A stretch of 41,550 nucleotides of DNA from the NCBI GenBank assembly GCA_018065695.1, contig JAGHST010000029.1:1-41550 (forward strand), given 5' to 3'. Positions 12,146 to 39,322 of the stretch are shown in pieces. Positions within the stretch are counted from its first letter, which is position 1, and each line of letters begins with the position of its first letter. The notes under the pieces were generated by a model. It did no database searches. It had not been told where the DNA came from and saw nothing but the letters and a program-made list of their open reading frames with translations. This DNA is from Candidatus Cacconaster caballi. Lineage in GTDB: Bacteria; Bacteroidota; Bacteroidia; Bacteroidales; UBA932. A program made the position numbers and the translations under genes.

Positions 12146-14131
12146 ATGCATTTAAAATATTTGGGTATTCTGTTGCCGGCGGCAGCCGCATTATGTGTTC
12201 TGCATGGTGAATGTCATGCACAGGACACTCTTGCCGTGTCAAAGATCACGGCTTCGGCGGCGGTGGCGCCGGTGCTGCAGAGCGCACCGGCCCAAAGCGC
12301 CGACCGCGCCGACATCGAACGGCTCGGAATGCAGGAACTGCACGAAGCCCTTCGCGGCTTCGCAGGAGTCAGCATCCGCGACTACGGCGGAATCGGCGGC
12401 GTCAAGACGGTGTCGGTACGAAACCTCGGCGCGCAGCACACCGCGGTGGCGTATGACGGTATAGCCATGTCCAACGCCCAAAGCGGCCAGATAGACATCA
12501 GCAGGTTCTCGCTGGACAATGTCGACCAGGTCAGCATCGTGATAGGTCAGAGCGACGACATCTTCCAGTGCGCAAGGATGCTTTCAAGCGCCGGAGCGCT
12601 CAACATCAAGACGCTCAAGCCGCGTTTCGAAGGTAAGCGCACCAATTTCAACGCTCAAATGAAGGCCGGATCTTTCAAGACATTCAACCCTTCACTTCTG
12701 CTCGAGCGGAAAATTGGGCGTAACTGGTCTGCTTCGGCAACATGCGACTGGCTCAAGACCGATGGCACATATCCGTTCGATATTAAGAACGGCAGCACCG
12801 TGGAGCATCTCAGACGCCTCAACAGCGATGTGGACCGCCTGAGAGCGGAACTGAACATATTCGGCAATGTCGGAAAGAACGGAGAACTCGACATCAAAGC
12901 CAACTGGCTGTCAGGCGAACGCGGGTTGCCGGGCTCCGTCAAACTGTACAATCCGAAAGCAAACGAGCGGCTATGGGACCGCAGCGGCCTTGCCAGCGCG
13001 GCCTACACCGCAGAGCTCGGTGCAAAATGGAGCCTCAAGAGCAGCCTCAACTATTCATACAGCTGGAACAGATATCTCGACATCAGTGAAATATACGCCG
13101 GCGGAAAAGAAGACGACAACTATACCCAGAGGGAACTTTCAGCCTCTGCGACGGTTCTATTCAAGCCGACTTCCAAAGTCCGTTTCTCACTTGCGGAGGA
13201 CCTGTCCTGCAACACTTTGGACTCCAATATCCCGGAATGTGCCTTTCCTGAGCGGTACAGCTCGCTCACAGCCCTTGCCGGGCAATGGAGGAGCGAACGC
13301 CTGACAGCCACCGCCACCCTGACCGGCACCCTCATCACCGAAAGAGTGAAATTCGGTGATGCCGCTCCGGACAGGAAGCACCTCTCCCCTTCGGTCAGCG
13401 TTTCATACAAGCTTTTCAAGGAAGCAAATTTCCGCCTCCGCGCTTCATATAAGAACAGTTTCAGGGTTCCGACATTCAACGACCTCTATTATATGCGCAC
13501 CGGAAACAGGAATCTGAGGCCTGAAAAAGCGCACCAGTTCAATCTGGGCCTGACGTGGAGCGGAGCTCCCGCAAAAGGCCCGCTGAGCTACGCCCGCTTC
13601 ACAGCCGACGGTTATTATAACTACGTTAAAGACAAGATTGTGGCGCGCCCTACCCTTTTCATCTGGAAGATGATGAATGTGGGACGTGTACAGATGGTCG
13701 GGACGGACCTTAGTGCCGAGGCCCGTGCGGACATAGCCGCCGGGCAGAGCATGGTCGCATCAGGCACATATTCCTACCAGTATGCCGTAGATATCACTGA
13801 CCCCGAATCCAAGACTTACCGCCACCAGATTCCGTACACCCCGCGCCACAGCGGCTCAGCCGCCTTCTCGTGGCAGAACCCGTGGGTGAATGCCGCCCTC
13901 ACACTGGCGGCTTCCGGCAAGAGATACGCCCTGCCGCAGAACATCGACACAAACCGGATTGACGGCTACTGCGAACTGAACCTCTCGCTGAGCCACGACT
14001 TCGACCTGAAAAGGGTGAAACTTCATCTGCAGGGCGAAATCCTCAACCTCACCGACTGCCAATATGCCGTCATCCAGTACTATCCCATGCCGGGGAGGTC
14101 TTTCCGAATCAATTTGAAAATAACCATTTAA
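12146..14131 (+). CDS. btuB: TonB-dependent outer-membrane cobalamin receptor, BtuB type
   Basis: A 661-residue outer-membrane receptor. A signal peptide ending near CHAQ (about residue 26) is followed by the plug domain (about 45-160; ELHEALRGFAGVSIRDYGG, SVRNLGAQHTAVAYDGIAM) and a 22-strand-type barrel closing with RSFRINLKITI. It lacks the carboxypeptidase-like N-terminal domain of SusC proteins, so it is the small BtuB type. The cobalamin riboswitch upstream and BtuG-, BtuF-, BtuC- and BtuD-like genes downstream identify vitamin B12 or another corrinoid as the substrate. It uses TonB-coupled energy to bring the ligand into the periplasm. Confidence 0.9.
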   Translation: MHLKYLGILLPAAAALCVLHGECHAQDTLAVSKITASAAVAPVLQSAPAQSADRADIERLGMQELHEALRGFAGVSIRDYGGIGGVKTVSVRNLGAQHTAVAYDGIAMSNAQSGQIDISRFSLDNVDQVSIVIGQSDDIFQCARMLSSAGALNIKTLKPRFEGKRTNFNAQMKAGSFKTFNPSLLLERKIGRNWSASATCDWLKTDGTYPFDIKNGSTVEHLRRLNSDVDRLRAELNIFGNVGKNGELDIKANWLSGERGLPGSVKLYNPKANERLWDRSGLASAAYTAELGAKWSLKSSLNYSYSWNRYLDISEIYAGGKEDDNYTQRELSASATVLFKPTSKVRFSLAEDLSCNTLDSNIPECAFPERYSSLTALAGQWRSERLTATATLTGTLITERVKFGDAAPDRKHLSPSVSVSYKLFKEANFRLRASYKNSFRVPTFNDLYYMRTGNRNLRPEKAHQFNLGLTWSGAPAKGPLSYARFTADGYYNYVKDKIVARPTLFIWKMMNVGRVQMVGTDLSAEARADIAAGQSMVASGTYSYQYAVDITDPESKTYRHQIPYTPRHSGSAAFSWQNPWVNAALTLAASGKRYALPQNIDTNRIDGYCELNLSLSHDFDLKRVKLHLQGEILNLTDCQYAVIQYYPMPGRSFRINLKITI

Positions 14132-14141
14132 AAATACTGAT

Positions 14142-15266
14142 ATGAAAAAGATTTTCGCATTAAGCTTCATTGCAACGGCAATGCTTTTCGCCTTCACTTC
14201 ATGCCACGAAGGTGGAGATGACCCGTTCGGTCCCGACAAACAGGAAGTCCTGGCAATCAACTACTATGTATTGAACAACGGTAACTGGGGCTCGAACGAC
14301 GCCTCCATCGGCGCAATAGACCTTCAGGCAAAGAAAATCACACCGGATGTTTTCAAAACCGCAAACAACAAGGCTTTGGGTGATGTTGCCCAGGATGCCA
14401 TAGTCTACGGAAGCAAAATGTATATTGCAGTTTACGGTTCAGCCACCGTTTTTGCCGTAAACAAATCGGACATGAAGATTGCCAAGGCCATTTCAGAAAA
14501 GAGCGCCGGCGGTGAAACACTTTCACCGAGACACTTCACAACCAACGGAGCCTTTGTCTATGTAACCTACTACGAAGGTTATGTCGGAGCCATCGACACC
14601 ACCACACTTTCGCTGAAACAACTTGTGAAAGTAGGCGATAACCCGGAAGATATCGCGTACTGCTCAGGCAAACTTTATGTTGCCAATTCGGGCGGTATGA
14701 ATTATCCGGACTACGGCCATACGGTATCCGTCATCGACGCGGCGACAATGACCGTGGAAAAGGAGTTGGAGGTCAATTTGAATCCGAACAAATTCGTCAT
14801 CAACAAGAAAAATGACCTCTACCTTCTCTCTTGGGGTGATTATGCCGCAACCCCTGCACAGCTGCAGCTGATCAACACGGCCAACCAGAGTGTCTCTTTG
14901 GTCGCAGATGTGAAGGATCCTTATGATATGGCTTTGGGATTGGATGAGAACCTGTACGTCCTCACAAGCAGTTATGATGAGAACTGGAACGCAGTCACAG
15001 ATGTTGTCATCTACAACACCAACGAGAAGAAATATGTAGGTCAGTTCAGCAGCAAGGTCACCGACATTAAAAACAAATATTCCATCAGTACCGACTACAG
15101 TCTGGGAAGCAATGCGCAAGGCGTTATCTTCATCGGCACCTCCGACTATATTTCAACCGGAGATATCTATATCTTCGATTCCATTGGGTCAGAATATGCT
15201 CATATGGATACCGGTGGTCTGAACCCTATCAAGGTGGTTCCTGCATCATTCGCTTACTACATCTAA
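14142..15266 (+). CDS. btuG: BtuG-like surface lipoprotein, cobalamin-binding beta-propeller
   Basis: A 374-residue lipoprotein with lipobox FTSC (Cys21), followed by an acidic stretch (HEGGDDP) of the kind that sends Bacteroidetes lipoproteins to the cell surface. The remainder is a repeated DUF5074/YncE-like propeller: successive blades contain phrases such as GAIDLQAKKITPDVF, AVNKSDMKIAKAI, GAIDTTTLSLKQLV and VIDAATMTVEKELEV. In Bacteroides thetaiotaomicron the BtuG family forms a lid on BtuB and binds B12 extremely tightly. Position 10 bases after btuB and before the BtuF gene fits that role. Binding here is inferred from family and location. Confidence 0.85.
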   Translation: MKKIFALSFIATAMLFAFTSCHEGGDDPFGPDKQEVLAINYYVLNNGNWGSNDASIGAIDLQAKKITPDVFKTANNKALGDVAQDAIVYGSKMYIAVYGSATVFAVNKSDMKIAKAISEKSAGGETLSPRHFTTNGAFVYVTYYEGYVGAIDTTTLSLKQLVKVGDNPEDIAYCSGKLYVANSGGMNYPDYGHTVSVIDAATMTVEKELEVNLNPNKFVINKKNDLYLLSWGDYAATPAQLQLINTANQSVSLVADVKDPYDMALGLDENLYVLTSSYDENWNAVTDVVIYNTNEKKYVGQFSSKVTDIKNKYSISTDYSLGSNAQGVIFIGTSDYISTGDIYIFDSIGSEYAHMDTGGLNPIKVVPASFAYYI

Positions 15267-15268
15267 AT

Positions 15269-16399
15269 ATGCATTCTTTTTGTGTTATTTTGATAGCAGC
15301 ATGTCTTGCTCTGTCTTCCTGCAGCCATTCAGGAAGACAGAGCGGCAGCTGCAACGCGAAGGAAGCCACCCCGCTCGAGTATGCTTCAGGCTTCAGCATT
15401 GAACGCTTTGAAGGATACACCAGAGTGTCCGTCCGCAATCCCTGGGATACACTGAAAACACTTCACAATTATATTCTTGTCGATAGAGAGCAACCTGTCC
15501 CGGGCAATCTTCCCGAGGGTACCTTAATCAAAATTCCTGTAAAAAATGCTGTCATCTATACGTCGGTCCACTCGGGGATGGCAGCCCAAATGGGGTGTCT
15601 GGAAAATGTATGCGGCGTCTGTGAGCCTCAGTATATCACATGTCAGGAAGTGCTCGACGCAATAAAAGCAGGGGCCATCGCCGACCTCGGTCTTTCCACC
15701 GCCCCCGACATTGAAAAGATTATCAGTCTCGAAGCCGAAGTGATACTTGCCTCACCGTTTGAGAACAGCGGATACGGCCCGGCCGAAAAAATCGGCGTGC
15801 CTATCGTAGAAGCGGCCGATTATATGGAAAACCATCCTCTGGGCCGCACCGAATGGATCAAATTCTACGGCCTGCTTTTCGGCGAGGAAGCCCGGGCGGA
15901 CTCGATTTTCAATGAGACGTGCCGGAACTACAACGAATTGAAAGAGATGGCGGCCGGATGCAAGGAACGGCCGACAGTGTTTCTCGAACGCAAGTACGGC
16001 GCCACCTGGGCAGTGCCCGGAGCCGACAGTTATATCGCCGTCATGCACCGCGATGCCGGCGCCGATTATATCTTCAGCAATGTCCGGGGGACCAACAGCA
16101 TCCAGATGTCGTATGAAAAAGTATTCGAACAGGCTGCAGATGCTGATTTCTGGATAATGAAGCACAACCGCGCAAGCGGTTTTTCATATTCCGACCTGAA
16201 GAAGGAATACCAACCGTATTCGAATTTCAATGCTTACAAAAATCATCGTATCTTTGCCTGCAACACTGTGGGAACGCCGTACTACGATGACATAACCCTG
16301 CATCCGGACCTTATTCTGAAAGATTTCATAAGCATATATCATCCGGAATTGCTTCCCGGTCATACGGCCAAATACTACAGACCTCTTGAAGACCGATGA
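15269..16399 (+). CDS. btuF: Cobalamin ABC transporter substrate-binding lipoprotein, BtuF type
   Basis: A 376-residue periplasmic-binding protein of the PF01497 (BtuF/FepB) class. The lipobox LSSC (Cys18) anchors it. The first lobe has IYTSVHSGMAAQMGCLENVCGV and the second VFLERKYGATWAVPGADSY; between them lies the long rigid helix typical of this class. It should collect corrinoid delivered by BtuB and pass it to BtuCD. It starts two bases after the BtuG gene and overlaps the permease gene by four bases (ATGA), so translation is coupled. Confidence 0.88.
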   Translation: MHSFCVILIAACLALSSCSHSGRQSGSCNAKEATPLEYASGFSIERFEGYTRVSVRNPWDTLKTLHNYILVDREQPVPGNLPEGTLIKIPVKNAVIYTSVHSGMAAQMGCLENVCGVCEPQYITCQEVLDAIKAGAIADLGLSTAPDIEKIISLEAEVILASPFENSGYGPAEKIGVPIVEAADYMENHPLGRTEWIKFYGLLFGEEARADSIFNETCRNYNELKEMAAGCKERPTVFLERKYGATWAVPGADSYIAVMHRDAGADYIFSNVRGTNSIQMSYEKVFEQAADADFWIMKHNRASGFSYSDLKKEYQPYSNFNAYKNHRIFACNTVGTPYYDDITLHPDLILKDFISIYHPELLPGHTAKYYRPLEDR

Positions 16400-17400
16400 A
16401 GAGAAACGCCACCATACCATACATAGGACTGGGAGCGGGACTTATCCTGCTGTTCCTTGCCAATCTCATGTACGGTTCGGTGCGCATTCCTGCATTTGAC
16501 GTGGTCAGCATCCTCCTCGGAGGAAGCCCCGGCCATCAGGCATGGTCGCACATTGTGCTGGAGAGCCGGCTTCCGCAGGCTGTCACCGCCCTTCTCGGCG
16601 GTGCCGCCCTTGCCGTCAGCGGCCTGATGCTTCAGACGCTGTTCAAGAACCCTCTCGCGGGCCCTTCCATCCTCGGCATCAGCGACGGCGCAAACCTCGG
16701 CGTGGCGATAGTCATGATCTATTTCTCCGCCGGCAGCTACCTCACCACCATATTCGCAGCCTTCATCGGCGCAGCGGTGGTGCTCCTGGTGATCATAGCC
16801 TTCTCGCGAAAAGTACGGAACAACGTGATGCTGCTCATCATAGGTATTATGATGGGGTATCTGGCATCCTCCATCATATCCATCCTCAATTTCAGGGCCA
16901 CCGCCGACAAAGTGCATCAGTATGTACTCTGGGGGATGGGCGACTTTACGGCGGTTTCCCTCGAGAAACTGCCATATTTCACTCTCTTTGCCGTGGCCGG
17001 ACTCATAGCCGCAGCTGCTCTCATAAAACCGCTGAACGCCCTTCTCCTGGGCGAATCATACGCGGCGAATCTGGGAGTTAAAGTCAGGCGGGTCAGAGTC
17101 GCCATACTTCTGGTGACGGGCATCCTGACCGCAACCGTCACCGCATTCTGCGGCCCCATATCATTCATCGGACTGGCCGTACCGCATATGGCAAGGCTGA
17201 TTCTCGGAAGCTCCAACCACAAGCAACTGTTGCCGGTCACACTCCTTGCGGGAGCTGCCATCGCGCTGCTGTGCAATCTGCTGACCATAGTGCCCGGAAA
17301 CGGACAGATGCTGCCGCTCAATGCCATCACCTCCATCATCGGTGCTCCGGTGATCATCTATGTCATCATGAACCGTAAAAACATCCAATATTTCAACTGA
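16396..17400 (+). CDS. btuC: Cobalamin ABC transporter permease, BtuC type
   Basis: A 334-residue FecCD-family permease with about ten transmembrane helices. Recognisable segments are RLPQAVTALLGGAALAVSG near the first third, GTLFKNPLA-like LQTLFKNPLAGPSILGISDG, and near the C terminus GPISFIGLAVPHMARL, which contacts the ATPase. It forms the inner-membrane channel for corrinoid uptake as a dimer. The gene overlaps both neighbours (ATGA with btuF, TGATG with btuD). Confidence 0.92.
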   Translation: MKRNATIPYIGLGAGLILLFLANLMYGSVRIPAFDVVSILLGGSPGHQAWSHIVLESRLPQAVTALLGGAALAVSGLMLQTLFKNPLAGPSILGISDGANLGVAIVMIYFSAGSYLTTIFAAFIGAAVVLLVIIAFSRKVRNNVMLLIIGIMMGYLASSIISILNFRATADKVHQYVLWGMGDFTAVSLEKLPYFTLFAVAGLIAAAALIKPLNALLLGESYAANLGVKVRRVRVAILLVTGILTATVTAFCGPISFIGLAVPHMARLILGSSNHKQLLPVTLLAGAAIALLCNLLTIVPGNGQMLPLNAITSIIGAPVIIYVIMNRKNIQYFN

Positions 17401-26451: not shown

Positions 26452-26931
26452 TTAATCTTTTGAAAGAAGTACCGTAGCGCTGGCGGCCACACCCTCTTCG
26501 CGGCCGGTGAAGCCGAGATGCTCGGTGGTAGTGGCCTTCACGCTGACGCGATCCTGGGTGATTTGCATATCTGAAGACAGCGTTTCGCGCATCTGCTGCA
26601 CATATGGAGCCACTTTCGGCTTCTGAAGCATAAGGGTGCAGTCCGCATTCACCACAGACCATCCCCTTTCGGCTATCATAGCGACGGTGCGGCGCAGAAG
26701 TATGCGGCTGTCGATGCCTTTGAATTCGTCGCTGGTGTCGGGGAAATGGAGACCGATATCGCCCAGTGATAGAGCTCCGAGAAGGGCATCACACAGAGCG
26801 TGGATTAGCACGTCTCCATCGGAATGGGCCACACAGCCCTGCCTGTGGGGGATTCGGACACCGCCAAGGGTGAGTGTAAGGCCCTCTGAAAGCCGGTGGA
26901 CGTCAAATCCGTTTCCAATTCTGTATTCCAT
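26452..26931 (-). CDS. ispF: 2-C-methyl-D-erythritol 2,4-cyclodiphosphate synthase
   Basis: A 159-residue enzyme of the non-mevalonate isoprenoid pathway, which cyclises CDP-ME 2-phosphate with release of CMP. The zinc ligands Asp10, His12 (GFDVHRL) and His44 (DGDVLIHALCDALLGA) are present, as are HFPDTSDEFKG and the C-terminal TTTEHLGFTGREEGVA. Homotrimeric in the family. Its presence shows that this organism makes isoprenoids through MEP, relevant for the AcnX genes at 35974-37719. Confidence 0.97.
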   Translation of the reverse strand: MEYRIGNGFDVHRLSEGLTLTLGGVRIPHRQGCVAHSDGDVLIHALCDALLGALSLGDIGLHFPDTSDEFKGIDSRILLRRTVAMIAERGWSVVNADCTLMLQKPKVAPYVQQMRETLSSDMQITQDRVSVKATTTEHLGFTGREEGVAASATVLLSKD

Positions 26932-33906: not shown

Positions 33907-35961
33907 ATGGAACAAAAGTATGAAGCCCTGTTTTCACCCTGGAAGATAGGCAATGTGGAAATCAAGAACCGAATCGTAATGACCTCAATGGGCGGTACCT
34001 CCATCTTCGGATGGCTGGAACCGAACCATTTCGACAAGGAGGCCGCCAACTTTCTTCTCGAACGCGCCAGAAACAACGCCGGCCTGATTCTGCCCGGCAT
34101 AGCCCCGATCAGGGACATCATTCTGGGCAAATGGCTCTATCAGGGCAAAGGAAAATATAAGGAGCTGAAAAAGTTTATGGATGAACTGCACAAGACCGGA
34201 TGCAAGATGTTCGTCCAGCTTACCGCCGGTTTCGGCCGCAGCATGGCCATAAACGACATAATGGTAAAGGCCTGCAAGAACAAGGCTCTCGGTTTCGTGA
34301 TGAAGCCGATTCTCGATATGGACTACCTCACCGCATCCGCATCGGCCACCCCCAACCGCTGGGAGGATACCTGCTACTCGCGCCCCTTCACTAAGAAGGA
34401 AATCAACAAGATGGTCGAGGCTTTCGCCAAGACCGCGAAGCTGTGTATGGATGCAGGAGTTGACGGAGTGGAGATTCACGCAGTCCACGAAGGCTATCTT
34501 CTGGACCAGTTCACGATGAAGTACACCAACCAGCGTACCGACGAATACGGCGGAAGTTTCGAAAACTGCTACCGCTTCCCTGTAGAGATAGTCAAGGCCA
34601 TCAAGGCCGCCTGCGGCAAGGATTTCCCGGTTTCGCTGCGCTACTCTGTTGTTTCCAAGACAAAGGACTTCGGCAAGGGCGCTCTTCCGGGCGAAGAGTA
34701 TGTAGAGGTGGGCCGCGATATGGAGGAGAGCGAGAAAGCCGCACGCTATCTTCAGGATGCCGGATACGATATGCTCAACTGCGACAACGGCACGTACGAT
34801 GCCTGGTACTGGGCTCATCCGCCTATGTATATGCCGCAGAACTGCAACCTCGATGATGTAAAGCACATCAAGAAATTCGTCGATATCCCTGTCGTATGCG
34901 CAGGACGAATGACTCCGGAGGTTGCCGCCGAAGCCATCGCAGCAGGCGAGCTTGACGCAATGGGTGTGGCGCGCCAGTTCCTTGCAGACCCCGAGTGGAT
35001 AACGAAACTGATGAACGGAGACGAGGCGTCGATCAGGCCCTGCATCTGCTGCCACAACGCCTGCTTCAATATGGCCCACTACAAAGGCGTGGGCAACGAC
35101 CAGCCGCTTTCCGACAATATGGGTATGGCCCGCTGTGCGGTGAACCCCACCACGATGCAGTCGCGCAAATACAGGATTATCCCTACCGCCAGACCGAAGA
35201 AGGTCGCCGTCATCGGTGCCGGCGTAGGCGGAATGGAGGTGGCGAGAGTGCTTGCCCTCAGAGGCCACAAACCTGTGATTTTCGAGAAGTCCGACCGTCT
35301 CGGCGGAGTGTTCAACTTTGCGGCGGCTCCATCTTTCAAGGAGAAGGACAGGGAGCTTCTCAAGTGGTACGACAAGGAACTGAAGGATCTTGGCATTGAA
35401 GTGAGATTCAACACCGAGATAAGGTCGGAGGCCGACCTTGAAGGTTTCGACAGGATTGTAGTGGCTACCGGCGCGAAGGCCAACCGCCCTCCCATCAAGG
35501 GCATCGAGCGCTCCATCGAGGCCTGCAAATATCTCGGCGGGGCTGAGGTCGGACAGAAAGTCATCATCATCGGCGGAGGCCTCTCAGGCTGCGAAATCGC
35601 ATACGACCTCTATCTCAAGGGAAAGACTCCGGTGATTGTCGAGATGAAGAACGACCTTATCGCCGTGGCCGGTGTATGCCTGGCTAACAGCTCATATCTG
35701 CGAGACTTCTTCGCCCTGAACAAGGTCGAAGTCCATCTCGACACCAAACTGAAGGAGTTCACCGAAAAGGGCGTCACCGTAACCGACAAGGAGGGCAGAA
35801 CCTTCGAGATCGAAGGCGATACCGTCATCACCTCGATGGGATACAAACCGACTCCGCTGTTTGCGGGCAGCAGAAAGGTTCAGTTCGTGGGCGACTGCAG
35901 GAAGGTAGGCAACCTGCGTACCGCCATCTGGCGCGCCTGGGACGTGGCAATGAAAATATAA
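33907..35961 (+). CDS. Enoate reductase/BaiCD-type flavoenzyme (FMN, Fe-S, FAD)
   Basis: A 684-residue cytoplasmic oxidoreductase. Residues 1-370 form an Old Yellow Enzyme barrel; HAVHEGYLLDQF (191-202) and QRTDEYGGSFEN are typical of clostridial enoate reductases and BaiCD/BaiH. A cluster motif follows: Cys379, Cys382, Cys386 and Cys410. The last spacing, 23 residues, is longer than the 11-12 usual in this superfamily. FAD binding uses GAGVGG (437-442) and NAD(P) binding GGGLSG (556-561). Such enzymes pass electrons from NAD(P)H through FAD and Fe-S to FMN and reduce activated C=C bonds. It lies 12 bases before an AcnX dehydratase pair, so the double bond reduced is probably made by that dehydratase. 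Substrate unknown. Confidence 0.88.
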   Translation: MEQKYEALFSPWKIGNVEIKNRIVMTSMGGTSIFGWLEPNHFDKEAANFLLERARNNAGLILPGIAPIRDIILGKWLYQGKGKYKELKKFMDELHKTGCKMFVQLTAGFGRSMAINDIMVKACKNKALGFVMKPILDMDYLTASASATPNRWEDTCYSRPFTKKEINKMVEAFAKTAKLCMDAGVDGVEIHAVHEGYLLDQFTMKYTNQRTDEYGGSFENCYRFPVEIVKAIKAACGKDFPVSLRYSVVSKTKDFGKGALPGEEYVEVGRDMEESEKAARYLQDAGYDMLNCDNGTYDAWYWAHPPMYMPQNCNLDDVKHIKKFVDIPVVCAGRMTPEVAAEAIAAGELDAMGVARQFLADPEWITKLMNGDEASIRPCICCHNACFNMAHYKGVGNDQPLSDNMGMARCAVNPTTMQSRKYRIIPTARPKKVAVIGAGVGGMEVARVLALRGHKPVIFEKSDRLGGVFNFAAAPSFKEKDRELLKWYDKELKDLGIEVRFNTEIRSEADLEGFDRIVVATGAKANRPPIKGIERSIEACKYLGGAEVGQKVIIIGGGLSGCEIAYDLYLKGKTPVIVEMKNDLIAVAGVCLANSSYLRDFFALNKVEVHLDTKLKEFTEKGVTVTDKEGRTFEIEGDTVITSMGYKPTPLFAGSRKVQFVGDCRKVGNLRTAIWRAWDVAMKI

Positions 35962-35973
35962 TAGGAAAAAGAT

Positions 35974-37272
35974 ATGGCATATCAGTACAAAATGAAGCTC
36001 ACAGATGAGCAGAAAGCGATCCTCGAAGGGTCGCAGGGCCCGGTAAAGGCCAAAGTAATGGAGACAATCGTCAGATACGGCGATATGTTCGAGGCTACCG
36101 AACTCGTGAAGGTTACCCACGGACAGGGCCACCTCGTGACCTCATTCGGTCTGTCTCTCCTCAAACCCGTCTACAGGACAATGGATGAACTCATAGATGC
36201 AGGCCTCAAGGTCGAAGAGGGCTTCACAATGGACCCGCGTCCTGCAGACTTCAGTAACACACCCTGCTCTCTTATCGACAAACTGCTGATAAAGACAATC
36301 CTCTACGGCAAGCAGAAAGACTATGAAGAGCAGCTCCGTAAGCTCGGCCTCGTCAGGGACGATGCCTTCAGTTGCGCCTGCTACTTCGACGAGATGGGCA
36401 ACATCCCTTCAAAGGGTGACGTCCTCTCCTGGGCCGAATCAAGCGCCGTGAACTATGCCAACTCCGTGCTTGGCGCCCGGTGCAACCGCAACTCCGGAAT
36501 GATTGACATATTCGGCTCCATCATCGGTTTCGTTCCGAAGTTCGGACTGCTGACCGACGAAGGCCGCAAGGCAAAATGGAAAGTGATTGTCAAGACCGAA
36601 AAGAAACCTCTGCCGCAGATTCTCGGCTCGGCTATCGGCATCAAAGTGATGGAGGACGTCCCTTATGTGGTCGGGCTCGACAAATGGATCGGCACAGAGC
36701 TCAACGATGAATGCAAGGCATATCTGAAGGATTTCGGAGCAGCCACAGCATCCAACGGTGCCGTGGGCCTCTACCACATCGAGAACGTCACCCCTGAGGC
36801 AGTGGAGCAGGGAGAGAAACTGCTCGTGGAAGGATACAGGGAATATGTCATTGATGACGAAGAACTCGAAAGGGTTTACAAGTCCTATCCGAACATCTGG
36901 AAAAAGCCGGAGAAGGCAGGCAATCTCGCATTCATCGGCTGTCCGCATCTTTCAAAGGTGCAACTCGAGGATTGGGCGGACCGCATCATCGGTGCCGTCA
37001 AGGCCGCCGGCCGCACTAAAGTGGCCGTCGATACAGTGCTCTGCACCGCACCTCCGGTGAGGGAAGCGTTCGCCAGGAGTCCTAAATATGCGCAACTCAT
37101 CGCCACGGGAGCGAAACTCACCACCATCTGTCCGCTTATGTACACGTCGAATCCTCTCACCAAGTCAAAGAGGATAATGACCTGCTCGAACAAACTGCGC
37201 ACCTATTCCATGGCGCGCTATTTCAAGGACGACGAACTTCTCGCAATCATCTCAGGAAAAAAGGAGGACTGA
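35974..37272 (+). CDS. Aconitase X large (catalytic) subunit
   Basis: A 432-residue AcnX catalytic subunit (DUF521, PF04412). Family landmarks: LTDEQKAILEGSQGPVKAKVMETIVRYG, KVTHGQGHL, SSAVNYANSVLGARCNRNSG, IGCPHLSKVQLEDW and TTICPLMY. Candidate cluster cysteines are Cys170, Cys323 and Cys386, with Cys404 close by. Known AcnX enzymes dehydrate cis-3-hydroxy-L-proline (bacteria) or mevalonate 5-phosphate (archaea) with an Fe-S cluster. This one differs from the forms I know: GARC where GART is usual and TCSNK where TNSxK is usual, so the substrate may differ too. It is placed between an enoate-reductase-type enzyme and its small subunit, three bases upstream of the latter. Confidence 0.85.
   Translation: MAYQYKMKLTDEQKAILEGSQGPVKAKVMETIVRYGDMFEATELVKVTHGQGHLVTSFGLSLLKPVYRTMDELIDAGLKVEEGFTMDPRPADFSNTPCSLIDKLLIKTILYGKQKDYEEQLRKLGLVRDDAFSCACYFDEMGNIPSKGDVLSWAESSAVNYANSVLGARCNRNSGMIDIFGSIIGFVPKFGLLTDEGRKAKWKVIVKTEKKPLPQILGSAIGIKVMEDVPYVVGLDKWIGTELNDECKAYLKDFGAATASNGAVGLYHIENVTPEAVEQGEKLLVEGYREYVIDDEELERVYKSYPNIWKKPEKAGNLAFIGCPHLSKVQLEDWADRIIGAVKAAGRTKVAVDTVLCTAPPVREAFARSPKYAQLIATGAKLTTICPLMYTSNPLTKSKRIMTCSNKLRTYSMARYFKDDELLAIISGKKED
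37261..37267 (+). promoter_or_regulatory. Shine-Dalgarno-like AAGGAGG before the AcnX small subunit
   Basis: AAGGAGG ends eight bases before the ATG at 37276, an ideal distance. It is also the coding sequence of the last residues of the large subunit. Such motifs are unusual in Bacteroidetes; I cannot tell whether it works or is a by-product of Lys-Lys-Glu-Asp codons. Confidence 0.3.
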
Positions 37273-37275
37273 ACT

Positions 37276-37719
37276 ATGAAAGAATTCAAAGGACGCGTCA
37301 TAAACGGCGGATACTACAAAGGCGAAGCCGTAGTGTCCCATCAGGGAGTGAACACTCTTGCAACGTTCCAGAGTTCGGCACTGGCACACGCAAGCAAAGT
37401 GACCGTTGCAGACCAGAACAACCCCGACATATATCAGAAGAACATCACCGGCAAGGCTCTCTGCCTGCCTCAGACCATCGGCTCCACAACAGGAGGAATG
37501 GTGCTTCAGGTGATCTGTTCGATGGGGATAAACCCCGCCTGCATGCTCTTTTCAGAGCATATCGATTCCCTTGCGGGAGCGGGAGTGATTCTGTCTGTCG
37601 TATGGGAGAACAGCAAGCTGATTGCCATTGACCGGCTGGGACAGGAATTTCTCGACACCGTCAGGACCGGCGACACTATAGAAGTCACCGAAGACGGTAT
37701 CGTGAGAATCCTGGATTAG
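37276..37719 (+). CDS. Aconitase X small (swivel) subunit
   Basis: A 147-residue DUF126/PF01989 protein that forms the swivelling domain completing the AcnX active site. The family pattern is visible: FKGRVINGGYYKGEAVVS at the N terminus, then LPQTIGSTTGGMVLQ where the substrate-binding Ser loop (usually GSCSGS-like) lies, and DSLAGAGVILSVVW. Separate subunits mean this is a two-subunit (type II-like) AcnX. It ends three bases before the convergent namZ stop codon. Confidence 0.85.
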   Translation: MKEFKGRVINGGYYKGEAVVSHQGVNTLATFQSSALAHASKVTVADQNNPDIYQKNITGKALCLPQTIGSTTGGMVLQVICSMGINPACMLFSEHIDSLAGAGVILSVVWENSKLIAIDRLGQEFLDTVRTGDTIEVTEDGIVRILD

Positions 37720-37722
37720 GGC

Positions 37723-38886
37723 CTATTCTTCGTAGAGAAGGTACGGTTTGCGCTGGACTTTGAAGTTTTTGACGTCATCGGCCCACATGGCCTTGATTTC
37801 ATCTGCGCTGCAGCCCTGCTTTATCATTTTGCGCACATAGTCGCGTCCGATGAGAAGTTCGAAGAACGGGCGGAAGAAATGGTCGTCAAGATTGAGATTG
37901 TTGTAAGCGTCTATGACATATTCGAGGTTGATGCCTTTGGCATTGACCTCGTCTGTTGACGGGACGCTCCTCAAATCCACTCCATAACATTCCTTGTCGA
38001 GCTGAGGAGGGAACTTGGCTCCCTGGATGCTGCGCGGAGTGAAGGAGAAGGAATAGCCCTTCATATTCGGATGGCCGTACATCTGAAAAGCCTGGGAAGT
38101 ACCCCTGCCGAGGCTGACAGGTGTCGCTTCAAAATAGCAGGTGGAAGGATAGAGGTAGATGGACCTCATATCAGGGAGGTTTGGAGACGGCTTGACCGGA
38201 AGCACATACTTCGAGCGGTGGGTGTAGTTGCGGCACTTGATGACGGTCAGGTCGCACTGCTCTCCGTCGGGCAGCCACTTCTCGCCGTTTATCATCTGAG
38301 CAAGTTCGCCCAGAGTCATACCGTGACATACCGGAACAGGTATTGCGCCCACTCCCGATTTGTATTTCATATCGAGAATCGGACCATCGACATAGAATCC
38401 GATAGGGTTCGGACGGTCAAGTACGATCATCTTCTTGCCGTTTTCGGCACATACGGCCATCATTCTCTTCATCGTGGCGTTGTAGGTATAGAACCGGCAG
38501 CCCACGTCCTGAAGGTCGAATACCAGAACGTCGAAACCGTCTATGGTCTCCTGATTGAGCGAATCTCCGTAGAGCGACTTGATTGGAATGCCTGTCTGTT
38601 CGTCTATTGAGCTCTTGACTGTTTCACCTGCATCGGCAGTGCCGCGGAAACCGTGTTCAGGCGACATTATGAATACTACGTTCACACCTTTTTCCAGGCA
38701 GACGTCAAGAACGTGCTTGCCGCTGGAGGGCAAAATGCCGGTCTGGTTGGAAAGGATGCACACTCTCTTTCCCTGAAGCAGAGGGATGTACTGGTCAACG
38801 CTTTCGGCTCCGGGCATAATCCGCTCCCCGGCAAATCCGGTGACGGCGGCGAGAACAAGACTCGCAAGAAGAAGAATTTTTTTCAT
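37723..38886 (-). CDS. namZ: Exo-beta-N-acetylmuramidase NamZ family (DUF1343)
   Basis: A 387-residue exported protein; signal peptide cleaved near GFAG (about residue 20). The DUF1343 core is clear: KRVCILSNQTGILPSSG, MSPEHGFRGTADAGE, GFDVLVFDLQDVGCRFYTY, VLDRPNPIG and YPSTCYFEATPVSLGRGT. Characterised members remove terminal N-acetylmuramic acid from peptidoglycan fragments, for recycling or for scavenging from other bacteria. It follows tsaE by 22 bases. Confidence 0.9.
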   Translation of the reverse strand: MKKILLLASLVLAAVTGFAGERIMPGAESVDQYIPLLQGKRVCILSNQTGILPSSGKHVLDVCLEKGVNVVFIMSPEHGFRGTADAGETVKSSIDEQTGIPIKSLYGDSLNQETIDGFDVLVFDLQDVGCRFYTYNATMKRMMAVCAENGKKMIVLDRPNPIGFYVDGPILDMKYKSGVGAIPVPVCHGMTLGELAQMINGEKWLPDGEQCDLTVIKCRNYTHRSKYVLPVKPSPNLPDMRSIYLYPSTCYFEATPVSLGRGTSQAFQMYGHPNMKGYSFSFTPRSIQGAKFPPQLDKECYGVDLRSVPSTDEVNAKGINLEYVIDAYNNLNLDDHFFRPFFELLIGRDYVRKMIKQGCSADEIKAMWADDVKNFKVQRKPYLLYEE

Positions 38887-38908
38887 ATCTTACTAAAATT
38901 GTGGTGTT

Positions 38909-39322
38909 TCAGAAAAGAAGCGTACGGGTCTGCTCGTCCTCGACAAGAATGTTGACCTTAAGAGTCTCCTCGGGAAGAAGTTCTTCTATCATTTCAGGCC
39001 ATTCGATAAGGCAGAGACCGTCGGAGTCGAAGTATTCATAGAGTCCTATGTCCATAGCTTCGGAGAGTCTGTTGATACGGTAGAAATCAAAATGATATAC
39101 TGCTTTTCCGTCAGCGGAGGCATACTCGTTCACAATCGTGAAAGTCGGGCTGTTGACAACGTCTTCCACTCCAAGGAGGTTGCAGATGGCTGTTATGAAG
39201 GTGGTCTTGCCTGCGCCCATACCGCCGTAAAAGGCTATGATACGGCTTTTTCCGATGTGTTCGAGAAAGACCTTGGCCGCACGCTGAAGATCCCCGGTCC
39301 CATTGATTTTGATTTCTGTCAT
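38909..39322 (-). CDS. tsaE: tRNA t6A modification ATPase TsaE
   Basis: A 137-residue P-loop ATPase of the TsaBDE complex. Walker A is GGMGAGKTT (33-41), followed by NSPTFTIVNEY, HFDFYRI and LIEWPEMIEELLP. It works with the product of tsaC (30825-31412) in putting threonylcarbamoyl onto A37 of ANN-decoding tRNAs. First gene of a likely two-gene transcript with namZ. Confidence 0.93.
   Translation of the reverse strand: MTEIKINGTGDLQRAAKVFLEHIGKSRIIAFYGGMGAGKTTFITAICNLLGVEDVVNSPTFTIVNEYASADGKAVYHFDFYRINRLSEAMDIGLYEYFDSDGLCLIEWPEMIEELLPEETLKVNILVEDEQTRTLLF

Follow-up and report, generated by a model that had tools for sequence, protein, structure and literature searches.

We describe a 41,550-nucleotide stretch of contig JAGHST010000029.1 from Candidatus Cacconaster caballi (hereafter, the window), in which a flavoenzyme of the ene-reductase type, P0001, is encoded together with both subunits, large and small, of an enzyme of the aconitase X (AcnX) family. 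The three genes lie on the forward strand with intergenic gaps of 12 and 3 bases and form one operon. We consider it probable, though well short of certain, that this trio is a two-enzyme module for reductive dehydroxylation that serves as an electron sink. A first-pass annotation had described the trio as a flavoenzyme of the BaiCD/enoate reductase kind followed by AcnX, and the open reading frames, Pfam and NCBIfam agree with that description.

33907..35961, forward strand: FMN/Fe-S/FAD ene-reductase-type flavoenzyme P0001 (684 aa), by Pfam and by sequence and fold relatives
35974..37272, forward strand: AcnX large subunit P0002 (432 aa), by PF04412 and AlphaFold model matches
37276..37719, forward strand: AcnX small (swivel) subunit P0003 (147 aa), by PF01989; homologue of TK1248 (7cnr_B)

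AcnX enzymes with known activity dehydrate 3-hydroxy acids, taking a proton from the carbon beside the carboxylate and expelling the 3-hydroxyl (PMC8184944), and this mechanism yields an enoate except where nitrogen is attached to the alpha carbon. In the scheme we propose, the two AcnX subunits, with a [4Fe-4S] cluster as Lewis acid and Ser70 of the small subunit as base, would remove water from a free 3-hydroxy acid to give an alpha,beta-unsaturated acid, and the FMN/[4Fe-4S]/FAD flavoenzyme would reduce the C=C bond of this product with NAD(P)H to yield the saturated acid. One hydroxy acid would take up one pair of reducing equivalents without coenzyme A (CoA) or ATP. Habitat and chemistry suggest that such a module could serve anaerobic gut bacteria as an electron sink.

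The evidence that carries this reading is the company that AcnX keeps. One scan of named genome contigs with two 7-residue patterns yields 17 loci, of which 8 belong to Bacteroidales, 3 to Spirochaetota and 6 to Bacillota; their AcnX identities range from 63 to 86%. When the window is included, the small subunit adjoins the large one in all 18 loci, and the same three genes stand in the same order and on the same strand in 14 of them, drawn from Bacteroidales, Treponema/Spirochaetaceae, Christensenellaceae and an unplaced Firmicutes; the contig of L023 ends within the flavoenzyme gene. In L033, L034 and L037, the flavoenzyme is found on another contig of the genome (73, 63 and 63% identity), while the position directly upstream of AcnX in L036 is occupied by another OYE-type gene (752 aa, 28% identical to P0001). 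A human faecal scaffold (L226, MT837347.1) likewise holds the complete trio, in unchanged order, at 57-63% identity. Such recurrence is not due to chance. The search of gene neighborhoods that the first-pass annotation had proposed finds AcnX beside this flavoenzyme far beyond the genus.

A wider sampling extends the range of partners. Among 295 sampled genomes from the order of the L034 genome, there are 10 matches, namely G495 itself, six with AcnX at 56-60% identity, and three at only 27-29%. In L087 and L089, the gene upstream of AcnX belongs to the second OYE type, being 60-61% identical to that of L036; this type as a whole is 28-31% identical to P0001. In L088, a P0001-type fragment (72%) lies downstream of AcnX at the contig end; it has 87 bases in common with the end of L138, and the two are probably parts of one gene that the assembly split. 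The order in G681, with the flavoenzyme after the large and small subunits, is a third arrangement. L086 has a partner of another kind, a fumarate-reductase-like operon of SdhC-, SdhA- and SdhB-like genes, the first of which overlaps the small-subunit gene by 8 bases. Relatives of its SdhA-like protein occur in the AcnX carriers G742 (54%) and G749 (45% over 409 residues, 40% over the whole), whereas the best long match in 20 AcnX-negative genomes of the same search reaches 35%. L085 has no adjacent reductase, its P0001-type (63%) and SdhA-like (54%) proteins being encoded elsewhere in the genome, and L084 ends just after the large subunit. Altogether, when duplicates of the same genomes and L094 are excluded, an ene-reductase gene is adjacent to AcnX in 20 of 26 loci, with the P0001 type accounting for 16.

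Three classes of reductase are thus found beside AcnX of this clade: the P0001 type, the second OYE type, and the unrelated fumarate-reductase type. The convergence of three classes of C=C reductase on AcnX is the main and strongest argument that AcnX makes an enoate that its partner reduces. Dehydration followed by reduction, which the first-pass annotation had conjectured from the trio alone, gains weight from these two additional classes. We also observe that the SdhCAB-like genes of G742 lie between leuB-, ilvD- and ilvB-like genes (L166:3844-11374; names by sequence reading).

Within the genus, AcnX of the window's type occurs in 2 of 40 genomes, the window's own and G002, where the trio stretch carries the same genes as L032, a Candidatus Cacconaster equi record. 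The first-pass annotation had held that failure of relatives to keep the trio would speak against a joint function. Such rarity is indeed what we find, but the flavoenzyme orthologue is present in the same two genomes only, and the pair has therefore been gained or lost as a unit. The same picture emerges from the 100 genomes searched with each protein (own included), in which orthologues of both proteins are present in G000 and G002 and of neither in any other genome, the next-best P0001 match being 34%. In the three genomes with only a distant AcnX, a search for a P0001 orthologue found none (best 35%).

Several observations weigh against a joint function. The loci were gathered with two short peptide patterns and from a small number of sampled groups, and their counts do not measure prevalence. 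Five of the eight AcnX carriers searched lack a long SdhA-like match. The contig-end AcnX fragment of G749 (L094) is accompanied by the small subunit with no reductase in the genes after it, G659 has AcnX but no orthologue of the flavoenzyme in its genome (a draft, whose contig ends 61 bases after the large subunit), and the annotated 33 kb around a 47% identical AcnX in Rhodococcus opacus contains no OYE-type gene. Finally, in L135 and L137, P0001-type genes belong to another cluster, with 2-hydroxyacyl-CoA-dehydratase-like, activase, CooC-like and CdhC-like genes; together with L227, a 5.2-kb record that contains no AcnX, these indicate that the flavoenzyme is not tied to AcnX alone. They also lend some color to the alternative that the flavoenzyme acts on an unrelated substrate and shares with AcnX merely its regulation or transfer history, as P0001-type genes without an adjacent AcnX are found in L067, L068, L069, L135, L136, L137 and L227; the first six of these genomes hold a clade AcnX elsewhere but, having been picked for AcnX, provide no test, and L227 is just a 5.2-kb record. 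Since three different ene-reductase classes adjoin AcnX, we give this alternative little credence.

The second cluster merits description in its own right. In G742, G583 and G495 (L135:5955-13999, L137:146-9179 and L168:2792-8382), it comprises two to three HGD-D proteins (2-hydroxyacyl-CoA dehydratase/double-cubane-like), a BadF-type activase, a CooC-like ATPase, and a CdhC-like protein of 237-240 aa, and it is followed by a P0001-type flavoenzyme in two of the three genomes. The CdhC-like protein is found in these three of 44 genomes searched, all three being AcnX carriers. We considered this cluster as an obligatory part of the system and rejected it, as the search, which covered 7 Bacteroidales and 2 Spirochaetota carriers, did not find the CdhC-like protein in any of these nine. 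A PanE-like fourth gene was likewise set aside, being beside the small subunit in just 3 of 9 Bacteroidales loci (window included); these PanE/ApbA-like genes lie at L028:9736-10740 and L035:5926-6930 on the same strand and at L022:9744-10748 on the opposite strand, with a 4-base overlap with the small-subunit gene in L028. In two Lachnospiraceae loci (L068:6927-7790 and L069:1326-2186), a protein of 286-287 aa (90% alike between the two) is encoded directly downstream of the P0001-type gene, and its L068 copy has no Pfam or NCBIfam match.

Both AcnX subunits score above the curated Pfam cut-offs (large, PF04412, E 4.3e-87, 292.9 bits versus 31.5; small, PF01989, E 7.5e-10, 38.9 bits versus 27). 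The AlphaFold model of the large subunit (pLDDT 85) matches the Thermococcus kodakarensis AcnX chain 7cnr_A (E 3.8e-23, with 27% of residues identical in Foldseek) and, with a weaker score, mitochondrial aconitase (5acn, E 1.1e-6). Catalytic residues were mapped by alignment to solved AcnX chains of A. tumefaciens (At) and T. kodakarensis (Tk), with residue roles taken from PMC8184944.

36373..36375, forward strand: C134, first Fe-S ligand (Tk Cys110), by alignment; ligand role from PMC8184944
36940..36942, forward strand: C323, second Fe-S ligand (Tk Cys283), by alignment
37129..37131, forward strand: C386, third Fe-S ligand (At Cys508, Tk Cys342), by alignment to the A. tumefaciens chain
37192..37206, forward strand: K407-Y411 (At Lys530/Tyr534, Tk Lys361/Tyr365), carboxylate and hydroxyl binding (PMC8184944)
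37483..37491, forward strand: S70-T71-T72 of the small subunit, containing the general base Ser (Tk Ser62, At Ser70; role from PMC8184944)

All three type IIb-like [4Fe-4S] cysteines are present, and C134, C323, C386, E155, S156, S157, K407 and Y411 are invariant in 24 aligned large subunits, as are S70, T71 and T72 in 23 aligned small subunits. The catalytic set of Ser (S70, small subunit) and E155, S156, K407 and Y411 (large subunit) is thus kept throughout. By sequence, the window AcnX belongs to a distinct clade, in which the core and the cluster cysteines are kept and the substrate-site residues are changed. Types IIc-IIf of the family, which have the landmark residues of neither known activity, are described as having no known function (PMC8184944, PMC10040528).

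P0001 contains Oxidored_FMN at residues 8-371 (E 1.6e-56) and Pyr_redox_2 at residues 514-653 (E 1.4e-30). NCBIfam scores it highest as bilirubin reductase, at 352 bits against a cut-off of 750, and as BaiCD, at 338 against 825; with both scores below cut-off, P0001 is of the BaiCD/bilirubin reductase kind and is neither equivalog. The nearest solved relatives by sequence and by fold (the latter from a model of moderate confidence, pLDDT 72) are 2-naphthoyl-CoA reductase (6qkg) and 2,4-dienoyl-CoA reductase (1ps9).

34477..34497, forward strand: OYE-type substrate/proton-donor motif H191-A-V-H194-E-G-Y197
35041..35136, forward strand: codons 379-410, with probable Fe-S cysteines C379, C382, C386 and C410

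The residues H191, H194 and Y197, which we take to be the substrate and proton-donor residues of the OYE type, are invariant in 16/16 aligned orthologues, and by alignment Y197 has a conserved Tyr counterpart in both 1ps9 and 6qkg. The four cysteines, equally invariant (16/16), fit a probable Fe-S site. An OYE domain, a four-Cys site, and an FAD/NAD(P) domain are thus combined in a single chain, as in the 2,4-dienoyl-CoA/2-enoate reductase type. The clostridial 2-enoate reductase FldZ, which has the same architecture, reduces free enoates with NADH, a reaction at which classical OYEs are poor, and it prefers cinnamate while not taking the aliphatic enoates tested (PMC5882074).

The clade departs from the characterized AcnX enzymes at the substrate site, where two features stand out.

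36130..36150, forward strand: clade-specific loop H53-L-V-T-S-F-G59, with H53, V55, S57, F58 and G59 invariant (24/24)
36232..36234, forward strand: D87 (Tk Asn79, At Asn233), Asp in 24/24 clade members by both alignments

The loop is the region that holds substrate-nitrogen or phosphate contacts in other AcnX enzymes. In type I, At Asp203 binds the nitrogen of hydroxyproline, and the D203A variant is inactive or almost so (PMC8184944). HMMER places the equivalent at V55, MAFFT at S57, and an ungapped count at H53, a disagreement that stems from the different loop lengths of the clade and type I; none of the three, each invariant in 24/24, is an Asp. Likewise, Tk Asn79 contacts the 5-phosphate of mevalonate 5-phosphate (PMC8184944), and the clade has Asp87 in its place, as do the Rhodococcus and human faecal scaffold sequences. 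Because the equivalents of both Asp203 and Asn79 are changed, neither known AcnX substrate is expected.

We accordingly regard it as very unlikely that the enzyme acts on cis-3-hydroxyproline or mevalonate 5-phosphate, even though it is a member of the family and its small-subunit Thr72 corresponds to At Thr72, a contact to the hydroxyproline nitrogen (PMC8184944). While the clade lacks Asp at all three candidate positions, 14 type I/IIa-like Bacteroidota sequences, labeled as such by a Ser in place of C323 (as described for type IIa; the short fragments L009 and L019 left out), have Asp at the Asp203 place and Asn at the Asn79/Asn233 place. The NCBIfam equivalog for C3LHyp dehydratase gives 130.7 bits against a cut-off of 700. 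The hydroxyproline-like substrate suggested in the first-pass annotation is therefore not supported by the residues. Its argument that a mevalonate role is less likely, made from an ispF gene, is partly supported: the YgbB (IspF) gene is present at 26452-26931 of the window and is joined as evidence by the Asp at the Asn79 place. L-carnitine, with conversion to gamma-butyrobetaine, was also considered in view of D87 and because a BCCT transporter and an MTTB-type methyltransferase are encoded in the vicinity of a distant AcnX (26%; L091:4381-9154), but that AcnX falls outside the clade and no hint of betaines was seen in the trio loci; the L091 neighbors suggest a quaternary amine substrate for another AcnX clade. 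Another distant AcnX (28%) lies amid indolepyruvate oxidoreductase subunit-, ADP-forming acyl-CoA synthetase- and thiamine diphosphate enzyme-like genes (L090:770-10545; names by sequence reading).

The most likely substrate is a 3-hydroxy acid that carries neither a phosphate nor an alpha-amino group, and there are two candidate kinds, each hinted at by one genome. A hydroxy-di- or tricarboxylate (citrate/isocitrate to tricarballylate, or the malate or citramalate type), with tricarballylate, succinate or methylsuccinate as products, is possible although doubtful. The SdhA-like protein of L086 keeps the FrdA segments QxHPT, S/T-E-x2-RGEGG, RD, HYxMGG and HGANRLGxNSL, which we take to be substrate-site residues, as for a fumarate-like compound, and G681 (L138) has a DcuC/Na+-H+ antiporter-like gene two genes after the flavoenzyme. 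However, L-aspartate oxidase keeps similar segments and outscores FrdA in the same search, the DcuC match is weak (29.5 bits, versus 70.8 for Na_H_antiporter), and the clade-invariant D87 is acidic. A 3-hydroxy-3-arylpropionate, such as 3-(3-hydroxyphenyl)-3-hydroxypropionate, which would be dehydrated to a hydroxycinnamate and reduced by the flavoenzyme to a phenylpropionate, has a smaller chance. In R. opacus, about 5.5 kb separate the 47% identical AcnX from a gene for 3-carboxyethylcatechol dioxygenase, which belongs to an apparent mhp-type phenylpropionate cluster, and the cinnamate preference of FldZ, a like-built 2-enoate reductase, points the same way (PMC5882074), but separate regulator genes stand between the two gene sets in this one genome, aryl specificity is not apparent in the Frd-like partner of L086, and P0001 is too far from FldZ-type equivalogs for specificity to be carried over. 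The R. opacus PD630 locus (L224:11536-21746, NZ_CP080955.1), from an aerobe, contains both AcnX subunits (47% for the large one) in a catabolic cluster with an MFS transporter, an SDR, a hydrolase and an LLM flavin oxidoreductase, beside the mhp-type pathway.

The direction of the AcnX reaction admits another alternative. AcnX could be mainly a hydratase, and a dietary unsaturated acid, such as a hydroxycinnamate or trans-aconitate, which is abundant in grasses, could be either hydrated into central metabolism or reduced by the flavoenzyme to take up electrons, making the acid a branch point. The same genes and residues fit either direction, phosphomevalonate dehydratase has been assayed as a hydratase, showing that AcnX is reversible (PMC10040528), and the carriers' hosts eat plants, with citrate, aconitate and tricarballylate all being ruminal compounds (PMC4392294). 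On the other hand, movement of the pair as a unit makes most sense if the product of one enzyme is the substrate of the other, and we rate the branch point as unlikely compared with consecutive dehydration and reduction.

The trio has apparently spread horizontally between phyla, a feature absent from the first-pass annotation. With the LepA of the window as a yardstick, eight carriers of other phyla (Treponema and several Bacillota) have LepA at 54-57% identity and the AcnX large subunit at 76-82%, while a ninth, G497 (AcnX 63%), gave no full LepA match. As AcnX identity is far above that of LepA, the genes appear to have moved between phyla. Within the genus, the order is reversed, with G002 having LepA at 92% and AcnX at 78%; G002 carries two full-length LepA matches (92% and 80%, on contigs C50 and C26), which may reflect contamination of its assembly. 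In both trees, the Bacteroidales sequences group together inside a mixed Bacillota/Spirochaetota set, with supports of 88/90 for AcnX and 100/99 for the flavoenzyme (L023 fragment left out). Clustering of flanking genes, with G002 (present twice) not counted, shows that few families recur: L034 and L037 share five, L022, L028 and L035 share the PanE-like gene, and four further families are common to two loci each. Source titles of the 17 loci name horse faeces in seven cases, a horse-derived species name in three, and goat caecum in one. In the phylum sample of 395 genomes (own included), 16 others have a match, with homologues at 27-32% identity.

Two side observations concern possible carriage and insertion. 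The human faecal records L226 (MT837347.1) and L227 (MT838456.1) are short, unannotated entries titled 'Bacteriophage sp.', with P0001-type genes at 63% and 60%; L226 has the whole trio and L227 (5.2 kb) has the P0001-type gene without AcnX. Both read like bacterial scaffolds, and MT837347.1, the sole AcnX match in the phage collection, was rejected as a phage for this reason; the two peptide patterns found no relative in viral_contigs. The neighbors NamZ and TsaE, at 37723-39322 of the window, stay together in 27 of the 29 loci examined in the genus, our own being one of the 29. RsmE lies within 1.5 kb of NamZ in none of these loci, the 28 others included, and a search for an empty insertion site by way of NamZ accordingly gave no clean one. 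In G002, NamZ is on contig 1 and the trio on contig 29. Elsewhere in the window (12146-17397), a TonB B12-receptor-like gene, a DUF5074 gene, a periplasmic binding protein gene and a BtuC-like permease gene stand in a row, probably a cobalamin uptake locus.

A broader reading, which we offer only tentatively, is that an AcnX of a third specificity underlies an electron-sink module free of CoA and ATP, in which one dehydratase is combined with interchangeable ene-reductases (the soluble NAD(P)H flavoenzyme, the second OYE type or a membrane fumarate-reductase-like complex) and which spreads between phyla in herbivore hindguts. If true, a further means of hydrogen disposal that needs neither CoA nor ATP, and whose enzymes are named, would exist in the guts of herbivores and humans, and with the membrane fumarate-reductase-like partner, the module would amount to anaerobic respiration of a hydroxy acid. 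In a family whose types IIc-IIf have no known function, the convergent ene-reductase partners narrow the substrate search to 3-hydroxy acids.

When compared to known systems, the trio combines familiar parts in a new pairing. With AcnX type I (A. tumefaciens, 7cnp), the window AcnX shares the fold, the catalytic Ser, Glu, Lys and Tyr, and the residues that recognize the carboxylate and hydroxyl, but it has two subunits, a third Fe-S Cys at an aconitase-like position (C323), no Asp203 equivalent, and an ene-reductase rather than proline metabolism as its neighbor. The type IIb phosphomevalonate dehydratases (T. kodakarensis, 7cnr/7cns, and A. pernix) are likewise built of two subunits and share all three cluster cysteines, whereas the window AcnX is 27% identical, has Asp for Asn79 and another loop sequence, and comes from a bacterium with a gene of the methylerythritol phosphate (MEP) pathway. 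P0001 resembles FldZ, BaiCD and bilirubin reductase in its OYE domain, four-Cys Fe-S site, FAD/NAD(P) domain and active-site Tyr, but it scores far below the curated cut-offs of the latter two and, unlike in the FldZ and BaiCD systems, is coupled to AcnX rather than to a CoA-dependent dehydratase or Bai enzymes. The L086 partner has SdhA/SdhB homology and substrate-site motifs in common with quinol:fumarate reductase, from which it differs in sharing one operon with AcnX and in its 198-aa third protein without a Pfam match.

Reductive dehydroxylation by a dehydratase and a reductase is known as such from Stickland fermentation and bile acid metabolism (PMC11574389), and a CoA-free version based on AcnX would be new. 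The main text of PMC11574389 has no match for aconitase or enoate, and a literature search, mostly at the level of titles and abstracts and with thin coverage of subscription journals, found no description of AcnX paired with such a flavoenzyme. The reductive Stickland branch, in which a 2-hydroxyacyl-CoA dehydratase is followed by enoyl reduction, is alike in that it dehydrates, reduces a C=C bond and disposes of electrons (PMC11574389). P0001-type genes do have HGD-D genes nearby in L135, L137 and L068, and the first two of these loci also contain an activase, but the trio itself has neither HGD-D subunits nor an activase. Unlike the Stickland branch, it would operate without a CoA transferase, a radical dehydratase or an ATP-driven activase, and a 3-hydroxy rather than a 2-hydroxy acid is the expected substrate.

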